From Jannaschia helgolandensis (lineage in GTDB: Bacteria; Pseudomonadota; Alphaproteobacteria; Rhodobacterales; Rhodobacteraceae), in contig NZ_FNZQ01000001.1 in NCBI RefSeq assembly GCF_900109285.1, positions 587,001-651,000 of the forward strand: a DNA stretch of 64,000 nucleotides. The letters run 5' to 3'. Every line of letters starts with the position of its first letter. Positions within the stretch are counted from its first letter, which is position 1. A program made the translations under genes and the position numbers. This document shows positions 13,424 to 22,108 of the stretch, piece after piece. The notes beneath the pieces were generated by a model. That model saw only the letters and a program-made list of their open reading frames with translations, did no database searches and was not told the origin of the DNA.

Positions 13424-14018
13424 TCAGGGCCTCCTTAACGCCGGCGGCATCCTGCCCCCGGTCCATCGTTGCAAGAAAGGTTTCAAGCGCATCGTCCAGC
13501 GCGGTCAGCACGCCCTCCAGATCGATCTGACGCTCCTGACCCGTCCACCGGATCAACGCCTGGGACATCGACAAGACAGGCTCTGACGTGACGGTGACGC
13601 GTTCTGCCGCGATGCCGCCCCGTTCCAGCAGGCGCGCAACCGGAGCCGCGTCTTCGGGCGCGACCACGAGCGTAAGACATTCCGTCCCGGCATCGAGAAC
13701 GGCCTCCACCTCCTCCAGCAGAATCGGCAGAAAGGCCCGTTCGACCGTGCTGGGCAGAAGTTTGTCGAACACGTCGCGGAGAGCAGGCTCCAGTGTCATC
13801 AGCGCAGTCGTCATAGCCGCGCGCTGATCCCGCTCCAACCCGGTCAGACGTTCGGCCAATTGCGCAGCGACGCGGGATTGCTCCGCTTCGACCTGAGCCA
13901 TGGCGTCATCCCATCCCGCGTTGTAGCCATCGTCGAACCGGTCGTTGGCATGGTCGACGGAGGCCATCCCAGGCGCCTGTCCGCGGGTGCCGAAATCTTC
14001 TAGCCTCAGGGCCATCAC
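13416..14018 (-). CDS. fliH: Flagellar assembly protein FliH-like
   Basis: A 200-residue charged, soluble protein between fliF and fliN, the usual place for fliH. Residues 25-75 are a predicted coiled coil (DGYNAGWDDAMAQVEAEQSRVAAQLAERLTGLE region) and the C-terminal half resembles the FliH/HrpE domain that binds the FliI ATPase. FliH regulates FliI and links it to the C ring through FliN. Sequence conservation in this family is low, so the call rests on composition plus position. Overlaps: four bases with fliF, eight with fliN. Confidence 0.75.
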   Translation of the reverse strand: MMALRLEDFGTRGQAPGMASVDHANDRFDDGYNAGWDDAMAQVEAEQSRVAAQLAERLTGLERDQRAAMTTALMTLEPALRDVFDKLLPSTVERAFLPILLEEVEAVLDAGTECLTLVVAPEDAAPVARLLERGGIAAERVTVTSEPVLSMSQALIRWTGQERQIDLEGVLTALDDALETFLATMDRGQDAAGVKEALNG

Positions 14019-15691
14019 CGGACCTCACCGGGCGTGTCGTCCATCCATCCGCGCAGGACTTCGATGGTTTCCTCCCGGCGATCCGTGATCAGACGCCGCA
14101 GGCGATCGACCGGATCGTCACTCGACGTGACATCCTCCTTGTCCCTTTCGGACAGGGTTGGCAGCGCAGACAGGTCTGAAAGATCGGGCAAGTCGCCCAT
14201 GTCCGGCAGGTCGCCGAGATCGGACAGGGGTGTGGGCTTGACCGCACCGGGTGCGGAAAGTTCCAATGGGGCGGCTGCCGTATTGGCTGACGGAGGACCG
14301 AGGGCCGTCGAAGCAGCTGCACTCCGATTGGTCAATTGCGGCGTCATCACCCTGTTCAGAACGGGACGCACGACAAAGGCCATAACTCCAATCGCAACAA
14401 GAGCCAGCAGACCCGCCGTCACCATCTGCGTCACCTGTCCGCCGCTGAGCCATGGCAGGGACAGGCCCGGAGCCACATTGCCCAGCTCATCAAGCTGCTC
14501 GAACTGCATGGTACGAACGGTGACCACATCGCCACGATCGGCTCGGAAACCGACTGCCGATTCGACCAGCTCGCGAATGACCGACAGTTCCTCCCCGGTG
14601 CGCGGCGTCCACGCAATCGTTCCATCGGCGGCCGGTTCGCGCAGCCCGTCTACCATGACGGCCACGGTCAGACGGTCGATTGCACCGGGTGCCCGCTCGA
14701 TCTGTCGCTGGGTGGCCGAAAAGTCGTAGTTGACCCGTTCCCGCGTCTCGGCGTTGCTGCTTTCGCTGCCGCCCCCGTCGGCGGCGTCGCCCTCGGGCAG
14801 GTTGCTGGCCACTGTAACGCCCGCGCCCGCTCCGCCCCGGTCGGAGGCGGTTCGCTCCTCCGTATCGGTGCTGATTACCACGCGGCTGTCAGGATCCAGC
14901 ACGCGTTCGGTGATCGTCTCACGGTCCTTGCGTGTCTCGACCGCGACCTCGACAACGAATCGCCCGTCGCCGACCCGTGCAGTCAAAAGATTTTCGACCG
15001 CAGCACGCATCTCTGCAATTCGCGAATCGCGCTCCTCTGCTTCGGTGTCGACAGCCCCGCCGCCGACCACGCGACGGCTGGCGGCATCGATCACTGTCAC
15101 ATCCTCGGGCACCAGGTTACGGACGGCACCGGCCACCAGCGACTGGACCGCACGGGCCAGCGACGATCCGACCGCGCCCGATGTCATCTGCACCGTGACC
15201 GAGGCGGTGGCCGTACGGTCGCGTGAAAATGGCGACGAATCGGCCGTGGCCAGATGGACCCGTGCCAGCTTGACCCCCGGCGATGCCAGAATCGTTCGCG
15301 TCAGCTCGCCTTCGCGGGCGCGCCAATAGGCGGCGTCGAACATCTGCGAAGTGGTTCCGAACCCACTGAGCCCGTCGAGCAATTCATAGCCGGTTCCATC
15401 CATGCGCGGCAGGCCTTCGCCCGCCAGTTGCATCCGTAACTCATCGCGCTCAGCACCGTCGACATAGATTGAATCGCCCGTGATTTCATAGGCGACGCCT
15501 CTCGTATCCAGGTTTGCGATCACTTCCGCCGCGGCAGAGGGATCGAGCCGTGCGAAAAGCAGTTCCATCCGGGGAGCGGTGGCCAAACGGGTCAGGAAAA
15601 ACACCGACAGGAATGCCAGCAGCGTCGCGACGGCAAGCACGCCAAGCCGACGCTTGTCCTGCCCCTGCCAGAAGGTTGTCAGATTCTCCAC
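14015..15691 (-). CDS. fliF: Flagellar MS-ring protein FliF
   Basis: A 558-residue inner-membrane ring protein. Transmembrane segments lie near residues 18-37 and about 420-445; between them is the periplasmic YscJ/FliF ring-building region, including ELLFARLDPSAAAEVIANL and the ILASPGVKLARVHLA segment. The C-terminal cytoplasmic tail ends with DPVDRLRRLITDRREETIEVLRGWM, the FliG-binding motif. The start is a GTG at 15691, preceded by GGAGG with seven-base spacing. It heads the minus-strand operon fliF-fliH-fliN-fliP and shares a divergent promoter region with fliL, which contains a CtrA-like box. Confidence 0.95.
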   Translation of the reverse strand: MENLTTFWQGQDKRRLGVLAVATLLAFLSVFFLTRLATAPRMELLFARLDPSAAAEVIANLDTRGVAYEITGDSIYVDGAERDELRMQLAGEGLPRMDGTGYELLDGLSGFGTTSQMFDAAYWRAREGELTRTILASPGVKLARVHLATADSSPFSRDRTATASVTVQMTSGAVGSSLARAVQSLVAGAVRNLVPEDVTVIDAASRRVVGGGAVDTEAEERDSRIAEMRAAVENLLTARVGDGRFVVEVAVETRKDRETITERVLDPDSRVVISTDTEERTASDRGGAGAGVTVASNLPEGDAADGGGSESSNAETRERVNYDFSATQRQIERAPGAIDRLTVAVMVDGLREPAADGTIAWTPRTGEELSVIRELVESAVGFRADRGDVVTVRTMQFEQLDELGNVAPGLSLPWLSGGQVTQMVTAGLLALVAIGVMAFVVRPVLNRVMTPQLTNRSAAASTALGPPSANTAAAPLELSAPGAVKPTPLSDLGDLPDMGDLPDLSDLSALPTLSERDKEDVTSSDDPVDRLRRLITDRREETIEVLRGWMDDTPGEVR

Positions 15692-15755: not shown

Positions 15756-15771
15756 TTAACATTCGGTTAGT
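15756..15771. promoter_or_regulatory. Candidate CtrA box between fliF and fliL
   Basis: TTAA (15756-15759), seven bases, then TTAGT (15767-15771), one base different in the second half from the consensus TTAA-N7-TTAAC. It sits in the 124-base divergent region, 65 bases from the fliF start and 45 from the fliL start, so it could control both operons. CtrA control of flagellar genes is established in alphaproteobacteria; binding here is inferred. Confidence 0.6.
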
Positions 15772-15815: not shown

Positions 15816-16328
15816 ATGCGCGACACCGACGATTCTGCCGACAAGGCGACCGGCAAGCCACGCCGTGGCATGGGAAAAATGGGGTGGATCGCGACCCTGA
15901 TTCTTGTGCTCGCGCTGGGTGGCGGCGGATTCTACGCGACTTTTTCCGGAATGGTCGGCGGCGGGCAGGACATGGCAAACCCGATACCTGAACAGGGCGA
16001 GGCCGGCGGCTACGACACCGCGACATCGGATGCGCCCAGTTATCTTGAACTCGACCCGCTGATGGTGTCGGTCGGCGGTGCAGGTTCTGTCCGCCAACTC
16101 CGGTTCCGCGCCTATCTCCAACTGGATGACCTACGAACCGATGTGGCGTCTCTTCAGCCCCGCATCCTGGATATTTTCGCGACTTACCTGCGCGCGATTT
16201 CCGTCGCCCGGCTAGAGGACCCTACGGCACTTCTGCACCTGCGCGCGCAACTTCTGCGGCGGGTTCAACTGCTGACCGGACCGAATGCCGTCAGCGACCT
16301 ACTCATCATCGATTTCGTGATCACCTGA
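15816..16328 (+). CDS. fliL: Flagellar basal-body-associated protein FliL
   Basis: A 170-residue inner-membrane protein with one transmembrane segment (about residues 23-46) after a charged cytoplasmic N-terminus. The periplasmic part has YLELDPLMVSVGG and RQLRFRAYLQLDD, typical of FliL, and ends with NAVSDLLIIDFVIT. FliL forms a ring around stator units. It opens the plus-strand operon that includes motE and motA. A second, more divergent FliL-like gene lies at 24300-24755. Confidence 0.88.
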   Translation: MRDTDDSADKATGKPRRGMGKMGWIATLILVLALGGGGFYATFSGMVGGGQDMANPIPEQGEAGGYDTATSDAPSYLELDPLMVSVGGAGSVRQLRFRAYLQLDDLRTDVASLQPRILDIFATYLRAISVARLEDPTALLHLRAQLLRRVQLLTGPNAVSDLLIIDFVIT

Positions 16329-16329
16329 G

Positions 16330-16743
16330 ATGCAGATATTCACCTTTATCTCCGACGTACTCCTGGTGGCCGCAACCCTTGGCATGGCGCTTTGGTGCCG
16401 CATTCTGAGCCAGCGGCTGAAGGCGTTCAACGACATTGACACGGGTCTGGGCGGAACGATCGCGGCGCTGTCGCTTCAGGTCGACGACCTGAAGGCCTCG
16501 ATCGCATCGGCAGCGGCATCGGCATCGGCGCAGGGCGATGACAGGGCCAGAATTCTGTCGGCAGCGACGGAAAAGGCTGACGACCGGATCGGACGGATGG
16601 AAATGCTTCTCGCCAGCCTGGAAGACCTCGAGGAGGAGGCATCGGATCGCCTGCTTCGGGATCCGGTTCCGCCTGTCGGCATCGAACCCATGCCAAGTTT
16701 CCGGGCCGCGAGAACGGTGGATTTCGGAAGGGGGGGCCGATGA
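16330..16743 (+). CDS. DUF6468/PflI-like flagellar protein
   Basis: A 137-residue protein with an N-terminal transmembrane segment (about residues 4-22), then a short basic patch and a coiled-coil region with FNDIDTGLGGTIAALSLQVDDLKASI. The layout and this segment resemble DUF6468 proteins, which include Caulobacter PflI (flagellar positioning). It starts one base after the fliL stop and overlaps the motE start by four bases. Family assignment is from memory of the pattern and moderately certain; function here is inferred from position. Confidence 0.6.
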   Translation: MQIFTFISDVLLVAATLGMALWCRILSQRLKAFNDIDTGLGGTIAALSLQVDDLKASIASAAASASAQGDDRARILSAATEKADDRIGRMEMLLASLEDLEEEASDRLLRDPVPPVGIEPMPSFRAARTVDFGRGGR

Positions 16744-17324
16744 AAGCGTTCTTCATTCGCAACGTGAAGCGCCTCTCGATCACGACACTGATCGCCATTT
16801 TGCTGATCTCGGCGCTCAGTCGAATTGTGTCGGCGGGCCTGGCCGGTCTGCCCGACGAAACCCTTGATCCGACCGACGCATCCTATGACCGCAACGCATT
16901 GCTCTGCCCGCCATCGGATGAGGTATCGATGCTGATCACCCAGATCGGTCAACGGGGCGAAGATCTCACCAACCGCGAGATGACGGTCGCGCTGCGGGAA
17001 CAGGATATCGCCGTCGCCCGGCAGGAAATCGAAGGCGCGCTCGCCCGCCTGACAGAAGCCGAAGAGAAGCTCGCCGCGCGGATGCAGCAATCCAGCACGG
17101 CGGCGGATACTGATGTGGACCAGCTGGTCCGCGTCTACGAAGGCATGAAACCAAAAGAAGCCGCCGTCCTGTTCGAGGCTATGGAGCCCGCATTTGCCGC
17201 AGGCTTTCTGACCCGGATGAGCGCCGATGCGGCCTCCGCCCTGTTTTCGAACCTGTCACCGGAAAAGGCATATGCGCTGAGCGTAATCATGGCCGGGCGC
17301 AATGCCAACGCGGCAAGGGAGTAG
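16740..17324 (+). CDS. motE: MotE-type motility chaperone (MgtE N-terminal-like domain)
   Basis: A 194-residue protein with an N-terminal signal-anchor (about residues 12-34), a long coiled coil (about residues 60-115) and a C-terminal domain with YEGMKPKEAAVLFEAMEP and LTRMSADAASALFSNLSPEKAYALS, the MgtE-N-like repeat seen in MotE. In Sinorhizobium meliloti MotE is the periplasmic chaperone that stabilises MotC, a periplasmic motor protein. The motA gene follows at once, and the large secreted protein after motA is a candidate partner. Overlap with the preceding gene is four bases. Confidence 0.8.
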   Translation: MKAFFIRNVKRLSITTLIAILLISALSRIVSAGLAGLPDETLDPTDASYDRNALLCPPSDEVSMLITQIGQRGEDLTNREMTVALREQDIAVARQEIEGALARLTEAEEKLAARMQQSSTAADTDVDQLVRVYEGMKPKEAAVLFEAMEPAFAAGFLTRMSADAASALFSNLSPEKAYALSVIMAGRNANAARE

Positions 17325-17328
17325 TCCT

Positions 17329-18192
17329 ATGGTCGGCGTCGTAGGTATCGTCTTCATCTTCGTCATGGTTTTTGGCGGCTATCTGATGGCGGGGGGCAAG
17401 ATGGCCATCATCCTCAAGACCTTGCCATATGAAATCACCATGATCGGAGGGGCCGCCATCGGCGCTTTTCTGGTGGGCAACAGCATTCCCGAGATCAAGC
17501 ATACGCTCAAAGACATCGGGAAGGTGTTCAAGGGCCCCATATGGAAGCCCGGCGACTACCGCGATCTGCTGTGTCTGCTGTACGAGCTGGTTCGTCTGGG
17601 GCGACAGAATGCCGTTGCCCTCGAAGAGCATATCGAGAACCCCGCCGAATCGTCAGTCTTTCAGGAGTATCCCCGAATTGTTGCCGACGCCGAGGCAATC
17701 GCGATGATCTGTGATACCTTGCGCGCCATTTCGATGAACTACGATGATCCGCATCAGGTCGAAGATGTGTTGGGTCGCCGGATGGAGGAAAACCTCCACC
17801 ATTCGATGCACTCCAGCCATGCCTTGCAGTCGATGGCAGACAGCCTTCCGGCCCTCGGCATCGTGGCAGCCGTACTGGGCGTGATCAAGACAATGGGATC
17901 CATCGACCAACCTCCTGAAGTTCTGGGAAAATTGATCGGCGGTGCCCTCGTCGGCACATTTCTCGGCGTGTTTCTCGCATACGGCATCGTCGGACCTTTC
18001 GCCATCCGCCTGAAGGCGATCTGCGAGCAGGACGCTCATTTCTATTCCCTGATTCAGGATGTCCTGGTCGCCAACCTGCATAACCACGCGACCAACATCT
18101 GCATCGAGGTCGGACGCCAGTCGACACCGACCCACATGCGGCCCAGCTATTCCGAACTCGAAGAAGCCATAAAGGCGAGGAGGGCCGCATGA
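17329..18192 (+). CDS. motA: Flagellar motor stator protein MotA
   Basis: A 287-residue inner-membrane proton-channel subunit with four hydrophobic segments (near 2-22, 34-50, 165-185 and 198-220). The third carries LPALGIVAAVLGVIKTMG with the conserved proline, and the large cytoplasmic loop between TM2 and TM3 (residues 60-160) holds the torque-generating charged residues that contact FliG. The ATG at 17329 follows AAGGGA; the frame is open further upstream but that overlaps motE. The partner motB is not next to it nor anywhere in the window. Confidence 0.94.
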   Translation: MVGVVGIVFIFVMVFGGYLMAGGKMAIILKTLPYEITMIGGAAIGAFLVGNSIPEIKHTLKDIGKVFKGPIWKPGDYRDLLCLLYELVRLGRQNAVALEEHIENPAESSVFQEYPRIVADAEAIAMICDTLRAISMNYDDPHQVEDVLGRRMEENLHHSMHSSHALQSMADSLPALGIVAAVLGVIKTMGSIDQPPEVLGKLIGGALVGTFLGVFLAYGIVGPFAIRLKAICEQDAHFYSLIQDVLVANLHNHATNICIEVGRQSTPTHMRPSYSELEEAIKARRAA

Positions 18193-19985
18193 TACGCATG
18201 ATTGTCGTCATGGTCCTGATCGGATTTGGCGGAGCATATCCTCTGTCCGCCGAAACCGCGTCGGTTCAATCCGGTGAACACGCAACCTTCAGCAGGTTGG
18301 TTTTTCCGGACAAACCCGGTCGGACATGGCGTCAGGAAAGACCGACGCCATCGCGCGTGGAAATCATCTTTTCGGAAGGCGCGCCCGATCTCGACCTGAC
18401 TCGGGTCTTCGATTTCATCCCCCGCGACCGACTGCGGGAAGCTGTATTCACGACAGGAAAGCTGATCCTGACTCTTGGCTGCGAGTGTCCGGTCGACATC
18501 AGCCAGATCGCTTCGGGGCATATCGTCGTCGACGTCGGAGACGGACCGCCATTGCCTGCCGGAGATCCCCGCCTGGAAGCGAATCGCGCAGTCTTACCCG
18601 CTAAGCCCCGTCAGCGACTTTTGCCGCTGGTCTTGCCGCCCCGCAACTTGACGGGCCCGACATTCTCGGAGCCCATGGGTCCGACCGTAGCCGACGCGCA
18701 GATTACGGTCGCCGACACATCCGGTCCGCCACAAATGCGATTTCATCCCCTCGGAAACGTTCCCCTGACGCTGATCGAGCCGAAATCGAAGGGCGACACC
18801 CAGAGCGCCCAGGCCTGCCCGATCGAAGCACTTGCAGCTGAAACTCTGCTTCAGGATCCGGCCGAGGCGCTGCAATCGCTTGGTGCACAGATCGGGCTGT
18901 TGCTCGACGGCGGTGACGTACTTGACCGGTCCGCGGTCACCCGGTTGTCGCATATTTACCTTGCCATCGGGTGGGGGGCCGAAGCGCTGCAGATCGCATC
19001 AACCAATTCAACCGATCAAACGGCCCTTTCCACTATTGCCGCAGCGCTGGACGGTATTCCGAACCCCGGTGGCCCGGTTCCCGACCCAGGGTGCGGCCCT
19101 GCAACTGCCGTGATCGCGCTTTTGTCCCTTGAGGGGCCTTCGGGCTGGGATCGGACAGATTTGCCCGCCGTAACGGGTTTTCTCGATGGCATGTCGACGG
19201 ATCGCTGGCGCGACTTGCGAGACAGGCTCGAGGCCGCGCTCGGAGAGGTGAACTCATCGCAGGTTTTGGCAGGTCTGGGGCCCGCACAGGACGATACGTT
19301 CGACGCATCCACGCCGAGCGTGCGGGCTGCCGGTACAGACATTGCTGCCATCGAGGCCACGATCGAAATTCTCGCACGCGCCCTGACGAAAGGCATTGCT
19401 GCACCTGATCTGCAGATCGGTAACGCATTGGCGCTCCGCCCATCGATCCCTGACGGGCCGTTGCGTGATCAACTGGATGTTTTGCTGGCGGAGACGTTCG
19501 TGGTTGCGCGCAGACCCGGCGAAGCCGTCGCGATGGTTGCGAATGGGGATGCATCCGCCCCCGACATTCTCGACCTCGCATTGCGACATCTCTCACCCTC
19601 CCAAGCTGCCGAATTTGTCGTACGGCTGCGACCGCACCTGACTGCATTTCCTATTGCGCGGCAGAAGGCCCAGGCCATGTTTGCGAATCTCGACCTGCCC
19701 GAGATCGCCCGACGGTTCGCGGACGACGGTCCGCCCACACAGGACTTTGTTCCGACCGAGGCCATCCTCCCGCTAGCGGATGTCGACCCATGGCTCTCGC
19801 GGAATATGGCGATGCTCGCCGCCGCGCCAGCCGAAACATGGACCGACCGGAACCGGTTGGCGCAGGCAATCGTGTCCCGCAACGCAAGCGACCTGCCGCC
19901 AGCCGACCTTGCTGCCGCCGAGGCGGTTCTGTCGGAAAGCCGCATTCTCTCGGACCTCGTCTCCCGGCTTGTCCGGTCGCCGTAA
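18189..19985 (+). CDS. Large secreted protein downstream of motA, unknown (MotC analogue?)
   Basis: A 598-residue protein with an N-terminal signal peptide (about residues 1-21, ending LSA). Residues 28-120 look like a small beta-rich domain (HATFSRLVFPDKPGRTW, then ILTLGCECPVDISQIASGHIVVDV) reminiscent of AMIN-type periplasmic domains; residues 190-598 are almost all helical, with repeated 30-40 residue units suggestive of a TPR-like solenoid (LDLALRHLSPSQAAEFVVRL region). It overlaps the motA stop by four bases and precedes flhA. I do not recognise the family. Position and the upstream motE suggest a periplasmic motor or stator accessory, analogous to rhizobial MotC; this is inference. Confidence 0.6.
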   Translation: MIRMIVVMVLIGFGGAYPLSAETASVQSGEHATFSRLVFPDKPGRTWRQERPTPSRVEIIFSEGAPDLDLTRVFDFIPRDRLREAVFTTGKLILTLGCECPVDISQIASGHIVVDVGDGPPLPAGDPRLEANRAVLPAKPRQRLLPLVLPPRNLTGPTFSEPMGPTVADAQITVADTSGPPQMRFHPLGNVPLTLIEPKSKGDTQSAQACPIEALAAETLLQDPAEALQSLGAQIGLLLDGGDVLDRSAVTRLSHIYLAIGWGAEALQIASTNSTDQTALSTIAAALDGIPNPGGPVPDPGCGPATAVIALLSLEGPSGWDRTDLPAVTGFLDGMSTDRWRDLRDRLEAALGEVNSSQVLAGLGPAQDDTFDASTPSVRAAGTDIAAIEATIEILARALTKGIAAPDLQIGNALALRPSIPDGPLRDQLDVLLAETFVVARRPGEAVAMVANGDASAPDILDLALRHLSPSQAAEFVVRLRPHLTAFPIARQKAQAMFANLDLPEIARRFADDGPPTQDFVPTEAILPLADVDPWLSRNMAMLAAAPAETWTDRNRLAQAIVSRNASDLPPADLAAAEAVLSESRILSDLVSRLVRSP

Positions 19986-20047: not shown

Positions 20048-22108
20048 ATGAGATCAATGTTCCAACCAACGGCTATGATGGCCCTCGCTCTGATGGCCGT
20101 CATCCTGATGATGATTTTACCCATGCCGTCCTGGGTTCTCGATATCGGTCTGTCCGCCAGCTTTGCGATCGCAATCCTGATCTTCACGACGACACTGTTT
20201 ATCGAGCGTCCGCTGGATTTTTCCGCCTTTCCGACGATCCTGCTGGCTTCCCTAATGTTGCGTTTGTCGCTCAACGTCTCTTCCACGAAGCTGATCATCG
20301 GGCAGGGGCATACCGGAACCGACGCCGCAGGATCCGTGATCGAGGGATTCGCATCTTTCGTAATGAGTGGCAGTGTCGCGTTGGGACTTGTGGTGTTCGG
20401 CGTACTGCTGATCGTGAACTTCATGGTCATCACCAAAGGCGCGACCCGGATGGCCGAAGTGGGTGCGCGGTTCGCGCTGGACGGCATGCCGGGCAAGCAA
20501 CTTGCCATCGACAGCGATATGTCTGCAGGGGCCATCGATCATGAGGAAGCCAAGCGACGCCGCGAGGTTGAATTGGCCGAGACGACATTCTTCGGATCTC
20601 TTGATGGCGCATCGAAATTCGTCAAGGGCGATGCCGTCGCGGGCCTCCTGATCACGTTGCTCAACCTTGTCGTGGGGTTGAGCGCCGGAATGATCGCACA
20701 TGGAATGCCGATCGGTCAGGCTGTTGAAACGTATGCGATTCTTACGGTGGGTGACGGACTGGTGTCGCAGATCCCAGCCGTCATTATTTCGATCGCATCC
20801 GGACTTTTGCTGGCGCGTGGCGGCGGTAAAGGGGCCGTCGACAAGGATATCGCCGCACAGATCGGCCGTCATCCCGCTGCGCTTGGGACTGTAGCGCTGA
20901 TCATGATGGTTTTCGCCTTGGTTCCCGGCTTGCCCTTTCTGCCTTTCACCATAGGCGCCGTTATTCTGGGGGGTACTGCGGCAATTCGGTTTCGTACCTT
21001 GGCCAAGCCCGAGGCGCCGCCACCGGAAGACATCGCTCCGATCTTGAACGAACGGCAGATCGGGGACGTTCTGGCGCTGGATGAGATCCGCGTCGAATTC
21101 GCGCTCGATCTTGTTGACCTGGCGCTGGACCCCTCGAACGGACTGGAATCGCGGATCACAGGGCTGCGAAACCATATCGCCGAGAAGTTCGGCATCATCC
21201 TGCCGGAAATCCGCCTGACTGACGATCAAGGTCTGCCGGCAGGCACCTATGTCATTCTGATTCAAGGCGTCGAAGCGGCCCGTGACCGGCTGGAGCGCGA
21301 TCACGTTCTGATGCTGACTGGTGCAGGCACACCGGAACGGGTTCCGGGCCGAGCCGTGAAAGAACCGGTATACGGTGCTCCGGCCAAGTGGATTCCATCG
21401 TCGGCGGCGACTGATCTGATCGGCGAAACCATTGTGACACCGGGCGAAGTTCTCGCCACGCATCTGCTCGAAGTCATCAAGTCGAATTTCCCGCGCCTTC
21501 TGGGTCTCAAGGGTTTGCAGCATCTGCTGGACGCCTTTACCAAGGTTTCCTCGCCCGAAAAGGCGGTCGCGAACCGGCGTCTGCTGGAGGAATTGGTACC
21601 ATCGAAAGTCTCACCGGAACTACTGCTCTCGGTTCTCCGCCTTCTGCTGGCCGAACGCGTTTCGGTGCGAAACCTACCGGTCATTATCGAGGCGATCGCC
21701 GAGCAGCGAGAGACGGGGCACGGAGCCGATGATATCGCGGAACACGTTCGCCGTCGCCTGTCGGCACAGATCACGGCCGAGATGAAACGTCCCGACGGAA
21801 CGCTGCCGCTGATCCAGCTTTCCCCGGATTGGGAGGCTGCGTTCGAACGGTATCAGCTTGATGGCGCGACGGGTCGTGGCGACGTCGCGCTGCCTCCGGA
21901 CATGTTTCAGAAGCTGGCCATCGGGCTGGCTCAAAGCATCGGAAAGGCGGCGGAACAGGGCAATCATGCGGCAATTGTCACATCAGCCCGCCGCCGCCGA
22001 TTCGTTCATGACATCATGGCCGCCCGCGGCCTGCCGAACTCCGTCATCGCTTATGAGGAAATCGGGCCAGCAACTACACCGGCGATCCTCGGATCAGTGG
22101 CCGCATGA
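20048..22108 (+). CDS. flhA: Flagellar export apparatus protein FlhA
   Basis: A 686-residue FHIPEP-family protein. The N-terminal half holds about eight transmembrane segments; the cytoplasmic loop has the signature GARFALDGMPGKQLAIDSDM with the aspartate needed for proton-driven export. The soluble C-terminal domain (about residues 330-686) forms the nonameric ring that docks export chaperones; it includes EILLPE-like and RHVLMLTG-like strands. The start at 20048 gives the standard N-terminus. It overlaps fliR by four bases. Confidence 0.96.
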   Translation: MRSMFQPTAMMALALMAVILMMILPMPSWVLDIGLSASFAIAILIFTTTLFIERPLDFSAFPTILLASLMLRLSLNVSSTKLIIGQGHTGTDAAGSVIEGFASFVMSGSVALGLVVFGVLLIVNFMVITKGATRMAEVGARFALDGMPGKQLAIDSDMSAGAIDHEEAKRRREVELAETTFFGSLDGASKFVKGDAVAGLLITLLNLVVGLSAGMIAHGMPIGQAVETYAILTVGDGLVSQIPAVIISIASGLLLARGGGKGAVDKDIAAQIGRHPAALGTVALIMMVFALVPGLPFLPFTIGAVILGGTAAIRFRTLAKPEAPPPEDIAPILNERQIGDVLALDEIRVEFALDLVDLALDPSNGLESRITGLRNHIAEKFGIILPEIRLTDDQGLPAGTYVILIQGVEAARDRLERDHVLMLTGAGTPERVPGRAVKEPVYGAPAKWIPSSAATDLIGETIVTPGEVLATHLLEVIKSNFPRLLGLKGLQHLLDAFTKVSSPEKAVANRRLLEELVPSKVSPELLLSVLRLLLAERVSVRNLPVIIEAIAEQRETGHGADDIAEHVRRRLSAQITAEMKRPDGTLPLIQLSPDWEAAFERYQLDGATGRGDVALPPDMFQKLAIGLAQSIGKAAEQGNHAAIVTSARRRRFVHDIMAARGLPNSVIAYEEIGPATTPAILGSVAA

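Follow-up and report, generated by a model that had tools for sequence, protein, structure and literature searches.

A flagellar operon lies within the window analysed here, by which is meant the whole stretch of 64,000 nucleotides from the forward strand of Jannaschia helgolandensis (Rhodobacterales, Rhodobacteraceae; contig NZ_FNZQ01000001.1, positions 587,001 to 651,000), and in this operon motE and motA are followed by a gene for a probably secreted protein of 598 residues. The protein belongs to the MotK family, and is very probably a genuine component of the flagellar motor that already bears a name. We consider it highly probable that the whole is best explained by a periplasmic MotK which, together with MotE, forms a unit that acts as a spoke serving the MotA/MotB stators. 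Gene order, homology, domain plan and co-occurrence were computed here; that MotK is periplasmic, is required for rotation, binds MotE and MotB2 and localises to the pole is drawn from the published account of Cereibacter sphaeroides (PMC10954123). A previous reading of the letters alone (the original prediction) had proposed that motE, motA and a large frame, without motB, might encode an undescribed periplasmic stator or motor component, specific to the order and stabilised by MotE. The arrangement itself proved exact (194 and 598 residues for the MotE and large frames; Table 1), and the gene very probably does encode a part of the motor that resides in the periplasm and pairs with MotE; it co-occurs with MotE and with flagella. 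The qualifiers did not survive: MotK was published in 2024, relatives of it occur downstream of motE in numerous alphaproteobacterial families, and dependence is reported to run in the opposite direction in C. sphaeroides, MotE depending on MotK (PMC10954123).

Kinship with Cereibacter MotK

The 2024 description of the Fla2 flagellum of C. sphaeroides gives the gene order fliL2-pflI-motE-motA2-motK and a MotK of 652 residues, composed of an AMIN-like domain and TPR-like helices (PMC10954123). According to that account, MotK and MotE are both periplasmic and both indispensable for rotation, and each binds the other as well as MotB2; motK mutants are flagellated yet paralysed, the polar localisation of MotK requires MotA2 and MotB2, and MotE is severely reduced when MotK is missing, MotK itself persisting in the absence of MotE. 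The same source gives MotE a signal of 29 residues and a mature Cys20 as the dimer cysteine (PMC10954123).

The window carries a run of genes on the forward strand, fliL-pflI-motE-motA-[598-residue protein]-flhA, in which those from fliL through the 598-residue frame overlap or stand no more than 4 bases apart. With C. sphaeroides MotK the window protein shares the order fliL-pflI-motE-motA-motK, an AMIN-like beta domain, a linker and TPR-like helices, homology in sequence, and a MotE partner. It differs in length (598 residues against 652) and in the position of motB, which is not in the operon: the sole MotB_plug match of the genome lies at C5:178282, against 605189 for motK on the same contig, a distance of 427 kb; in G051, a genome of Cereibacter type, the corresponding distance is about 15 kb.

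The sequence used for direct comparison is that of G051 (locus L058), identified as Cereibacter MotK because it is 91% identical to the MotK of Cereibacter johrii; its MotK of 652 residues, its MotE of 185 residues and the MotE Cys49 all equal the C. sphaeroides values in print. The window protein aligns with this MotK at 26% identity over 385 residues (E 4e-20); for the two MotE proteins the identity is 46% across 127 residues (E 2e-27).

Fold of MotK and of its partner MotE

No Pfam family matches the 598-residue protein at E up to 1, its sole NCBIfam match is to an unrelated model (E 0.044), and a search of the Protein Data Bank (PDB) by sequence returned nothing better than E 5. The lack of a Pfam or NCBIfam family is what could be said for regarding the protein as a new stator part, specific to the order and unrelated to known scaffold proteins; set against a MotK that is already published (PMC10954123) and relatives throughout the class, this reading is extremely improbable.

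The AlphaFold model, built from a 60-sequence alignment (mean predicted local distance difference test, pLDDT, 78; predicted template modelling score, pTM, 0.40), contains both the beta domain and the helical solenoid that the original prediction had read from the sequence, in the order shown in Table 1. The AMIN-like domain of the model matches AmiC (4bin) with Z 10.5 and a root-mean-square deviation of 2.4 over 97 residues, and PilQ-type chains with Z 8.9-10.2. For the model as a whole, the top Foldseek match in the PDB is 9hmf_K, a chain of the flagellar periplasmic scaffold of Campylobacter jejuni aligned over 596 columns, which we take to be PflA from its length and the PDB entry. The entry is described as a scaffold model containing PflA and PflB among others (PMC12222027).

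Exactly four cysteines are present in the window MotK, at residues 98, 100, 210 and 302, and are found in 55, 55, 60 and 59 of 60 alignment rows respectively. The first two form a CxC pair within the beta domain. Such near-invariance suggests that the cysteines may form conserved disulphides.

The window MotE falls below the family cut-offs, matching MgtE_N at E 1.8e-5 (0.3 bits below the cut-off) and FlbB at E 1.4e-7 (far below the cut-off of that model). Its model consists of an N-terminal hydrophobic helix, a long helix (60-135) and a four-helix C-terminal domain. Its top structural match in the PDB is 9a67_B, an integrative FliF-YlxF model (E 2.6e-3), followed by FliG and MgtE entries, all of them above E 0.001; when the MotE profile was searched against the PDB, only weak matches emerged, most of them coiled coils, and MgtE was one of the matches. 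YlxF is named in a review as the Bacillus homologue of FlgY (PMC13023049). The single cysteine of the window MotE, Cys56, lies close to the position of the published dimer cysteine.

Gene order and co-occurrence in the family

Among the Rhodobacteraceae, 61 relatives of the window protein were found, of which 60 loci were fetched, the fragment L065 being left out of alignment A1. In all 60 loci motA precedes motK, and because the gene follows motA in every one of them the arrangement is not a matter of chance. The two genes overlap by 4 bases or 1 base in 43 of the 58 loci placed by tblastn, and motE lies within the stretch in 52 of the 60. Of the remaining eight loci, one lies at the edge of a contig and another belongs to G056, a genome considered below; the other six genomes carry motE elsewhere, beside fliF, and the pairing of MotE with MotK therefore survives the splitting of the operon.

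Profile searches of 120 genomes of the family found MotK in 84, FliF in 95 and MotE in 88, with all three in 81; profile A1 was searched in the same 120 genomes that had supplied 59 of its rows (besides the window), and those matches are present by construction. Two genomes (G040 and G061) have MotK and FliF without MotE, one (G056) has MotK only, one has MotE alone (G072, a marginal match at E 5.9e-4), and 23 have none of the three. The original prediction had looked to spread among non-flagellated relatives, or a failure to co-occur with MotE, as signs against itself: MotK is found in one of the 25 family genomes without FliF, and MotE accompanies it in 81 of 84.

These counts bear on the suggestion that the protein is a peptidoglycan-binding envelope protein merely located in a flagellar operon. 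An AMIN-like domain on its own does suggest binding to the wall, and G056, with no match for FliF, has a motK frame of 533 residues. FliF is nevertheless present in 83 of the 84 MotK-bearing genomes, 24 of the 25 FliF-negative genomes have no MotK match, and the G056 copy is shortened and still overlaps motA; with the C. sphaeroides motK mutants reported as flagellated but paralysed (PMC10954123), we judge an envelope role of this kind very unlikely.

Relatives across the Alphaproteobacteria

Applied to 240 genomes of the class, the same profile matched in 110, two of which are of the window's family, and MotE was matched in 128. Among the matches listed there are 96 MotK places in 95 of the 110 genomes (one per genome, with a second for G134, which has one near MotE and one far from it): 66 follow MotE on the same strand at a distance of no more than 10 kb, including the window's genome and one other of the family, 23 do not, and seven are in genomes without a MotE match. 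From the near places 20 distant loci were chosen, mostly those scoring best, and each of the 20 contains fliL, MotE and a 750-1354-residue frame matching the profile at E 3e-15 to 9e-37, these and the later E-values for distant and further loci being calculated on small sets of frames as opposed to whole genomes. The helical part of the profile is matched in 20 of the 20 proteins and the beta part in 16, eleven of which match it twice (one second match being weak); four lack a beta match. As a control, 108 reversed frames of more than 300 residues from these loci gave no match to profile A1 at E up to 10.

The 20 proteins were used to build a second profile, which detected such a protein close to MotE in 14 of the 15 additional genomes of the class searched, drawn from the 40 that have MotE and no listed MotK place. 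Nine of ten genomes previously without a match yielded such a protein, as did all five with previously weak matches (G128, G200, G242, G296 and G307). Comparison of profile with profile, the family alignment against 13 of those 14 proteins (alignment A3, which omits L114), gave a probability of 99.8% and E 5e-28, the agreement being confined to the solenoid. When 29 members of a mixed set were searched at E up to 0.01, AMIN-like was matched in 12, AMIN in two and TPR_19 in 14. As far as sequence comparison goes, these profile results support a single family that would extend across the class.

FssB / CC_2058 of Caulobacter crescentus, a secreted TPR protein that adjoins a MotE-type gene, is published as a distant or structural relative (PMC7885107, PMC13023049), and no BLAST similarity of MotK to the Caulobacter proteins is reported (PMC10954123). 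It is set beside the window protein here by description; other members of the class found by the profile share its plan, and such relatives go a little beyond the published absence of BLAST similarity to the Caulobacter type.

Further loci are recorded as observations in their own right. In L117 one frame of 215 residues matches profile A1 at E 2.7e-4. L114 (8496-10463) encodes a 655-residue relative of TPR type near a MotE of 181 residues, with no match to the AMIN-like part (profile D, E ~1e-77 as a single protein and 1e-74 among frames); it is a possible link between the MotK and MotC types. In loci from other families the interval between motE and motK is often occupied by two small MotB-like proteins in tandem, next to which no motA was detected, both members being present in 15 of the 20 loci L094-L113 and six of the 14 loci L116-L129. 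Of six pairs scanned, five have a MotB_plug match (E up to 0.01) in the first protein; in the second protein MotB_plug is matched in all six and OmpA in five. A narrow search of the open-access literature turned up no paper on MotB-like proteins in a motE-motK setting.

We regard it as moderately probable that MotK represents, in the Rhodobacterales, a single sequence family found together with MotE in most flagellated Alphaproteobacteria, and is no peculiarity of that order. The module of E-ring and spoke would then belong to the ground plan of the class, often supplemented outside the family by a tandem MotB-like pair, without an adjoining MotA, between motE and motK, the position occupied by motA in Rhodobacteraceae; the window protein, which is short, would represent a reduction to a single AMIN-like domain, many others having two.

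A proposed spoke between the E-ring and the stators

PflA of C. jejuni, as published, is likewise periplasmic, combines a beta-sandwich (AMIN), a flexible loop and a TPR solenoid, and has an E-ring partner, FlgY (PMC12222027, PMC11870540). Its order of beta-sandwich, flexible loop and TPR superhelix is found in the AlphaFold model of the window protein, and a partner of the FlgY/YlxF/FlbB kind is found in the window MotE, with FlbB and MgtE_N matches below their cut-offs and a FliF-YlxF model as its top structural match. Where the two proteins part is in sequence, the PDB searches giving no match, and in the weakness of the structural match. Published comparisons assign MotE, like FlgY and FlbB, to the E-ring, and count MotK and PflA as spokes (PMC11870540, PMC13023049). 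Because the MotE model fits this placement, we read MotK as a spoke that would run from the ring of MotE to stator and wall; its role is most likely that of a PflA-like protein that would join the ring to the stators and the wall.

In the mechanism proposed, MotK would be exported to the periplasm, where its AMIN-like domain would reach outwards on the flexible linker to the peptidoglycan and to the portion of MotB that lies in the periplasm. Together, MotE and MotK would form the spoke by which the MotA/MotB stators are positioned or opened; without it, the flagellum would be assembled and would fail to turn. We infer the spoke geometry, the contacts of each domain with its partner, the stoichiometry, the activation step and the same behaviour in the window's organism.

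One must also consider a client of the rhizobial MotC type, guarded from degradation by MotE and acting on MotB to control rotation. MotC of Sinorhizobium meliloti, compared here by its description in a review, is a periplasmic TPR protein bound by MotE and required for motor function; the review names MotC and MotK as homologues on structural grounds (PMC13023049). MotE as a common partner and the TPR-type relative of L114, near motE and without a beta-part match, point the same way. MotC is, however, described as lacking an AMIN domain and as degraded without MotE, the window protein has an AMIN-like domain, no motB lies beside the window motK, and MotK of C. sphaeroides is reported as stable without MotE (PMC10954123). 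We hold the MotC-type reading to be unlikely. The chaperone-client idea in particular was rejected on the published persistence of MotK without MotE (PMC10954123).

Several results weigh against the preferred reading of MotK as a spoke. Firstly, identity of the window protein to the studied MotK is low, and by sequence it matches neither an AMIN nor a TPR family, though other members do. Secondly, the match to 9hmf_K is weak (E 1.3e-3, probability 0.87, template modelling scores 0.13/0.11), and TPR-like folds resemble many things; in a VIA-align comparison of the MotK model, the C. jejuni scaffold chain is not among the best 50 rows. Thirdly, a cysteine in the dimer-cysteine region is present in 26 of the 37 rows of the MotE alignment (A2, comprising 36 of 49 listed MotE frames and the window MotE) and absent from 11. 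Finally, some flagella seem to do without MotK: six of the 95 FliF-bearing family genomes have MotE and FliF without it, and six have FliF only. For four of the former six (weaker MotE matches, 66-84 bits) the loci were read and no MotK match was seen near MotE, and the second profile found no such protein in these four genomes either. In one of them (L131:4228-6333) fliL, motE, motA and flhA are present, and the place of motK is occupied by a different, shorter frame of 235 residues with a 4-base overlap with motA. In G056, where neither FliF nor MotE is matched, a shortened motK still adjoins motA (L092:4632-7096); the open frame of 533 residues overlaps motA, covers profile positions 2-582 of 738 and has five stops at or behind its end, and the motA-motK pair is perhaps the remnant of a flagellar operon.

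Neighbouring genes and annotated features

The 137-residue protein encoded between fliL and motE has no Pfam or NCBIfam family above cut-off. For motA, a start at 17329 is more likely than one at 17302. The motB of the genome (L032:3674-4513, G000:C5) stands apart from the main flagellar cluster and adjoins a frame resembling flgE, a label given by inspection.

The CtrA-like site between fliF and fliL is a consensus match only. Six sites of this kind (TTAA-N7-TTAA with one mismatch) were observed in the window against 1.44 expected. In the fla2 cluster of C. sphaeroides a CtrA site is reported before fliL2, and the gene in the same position as the 137-residue gene is named pflI (PMC10954123).

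Table 1. Features of the flagellar operon and of the 598-residue MotK, with examples of MotB-like pairs outside the family
Feature	Position	Strand	Basis or remark
fliF	14015-15691		divergent, upstream of fliL
CtrA-like site TTAACATTCGGTTAG	15756..15770	+	between divergent fliF and fliL; TTAA-N7-TTAA with 1 mismatch; 45 bases 5' of fliL
fliL	15816..16328	+	PF03748, E 1.2e-9
pflI-like gene, 137 residues	16330..16743	+	relatives in same place among same-family loci having fliL and motE
motE, 194 residues	16740..17324	+	
motA, 287 residues	17329..18192	+	TIGR03818, E 2.5e-106, above cut-off
motK, 598 residues	18189..19985	+	4-base overlap with motA end; homology to Cereibacter MotK, synteny, profile A1
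Probable Sec signal peptide, residues 1-21	18189..18251	+	hydrophobic start read from sequence
AMIN-like beta domain, residues 22-122	18252..18554	+	AlphaFold strands 23-117; pLDDT of ten-residue blocks 21-120 >90
Linker, residues 123-210	18555..18818	+	short helix 127-135; low confidence 135-207, pLDDT <50
Helical TPR-like solenoid, residues 211-596	18819..19976	+	AlphaFold
flhA	20048-22108	+	
MotB-like pairs (examples)	L095:3728-5088; L098:5106-6592; L101:4310-5733; L118:4368-5863; L128:10474-11957		

Implications

A protein of a flagellar operon that matched no family is now a named part of the motor, and the direction of dependence between MotE and MotK, assumed from the rhizobia, is corrected. 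The class-wide profile joins MotK by sequence to the TPR proteins encoded next to motE in other families, for which the earlier literature had leaned on structure. If that link across the class is true, the E-ring and spoke would be open to genetics in many laboratory alphaproteobacteria.

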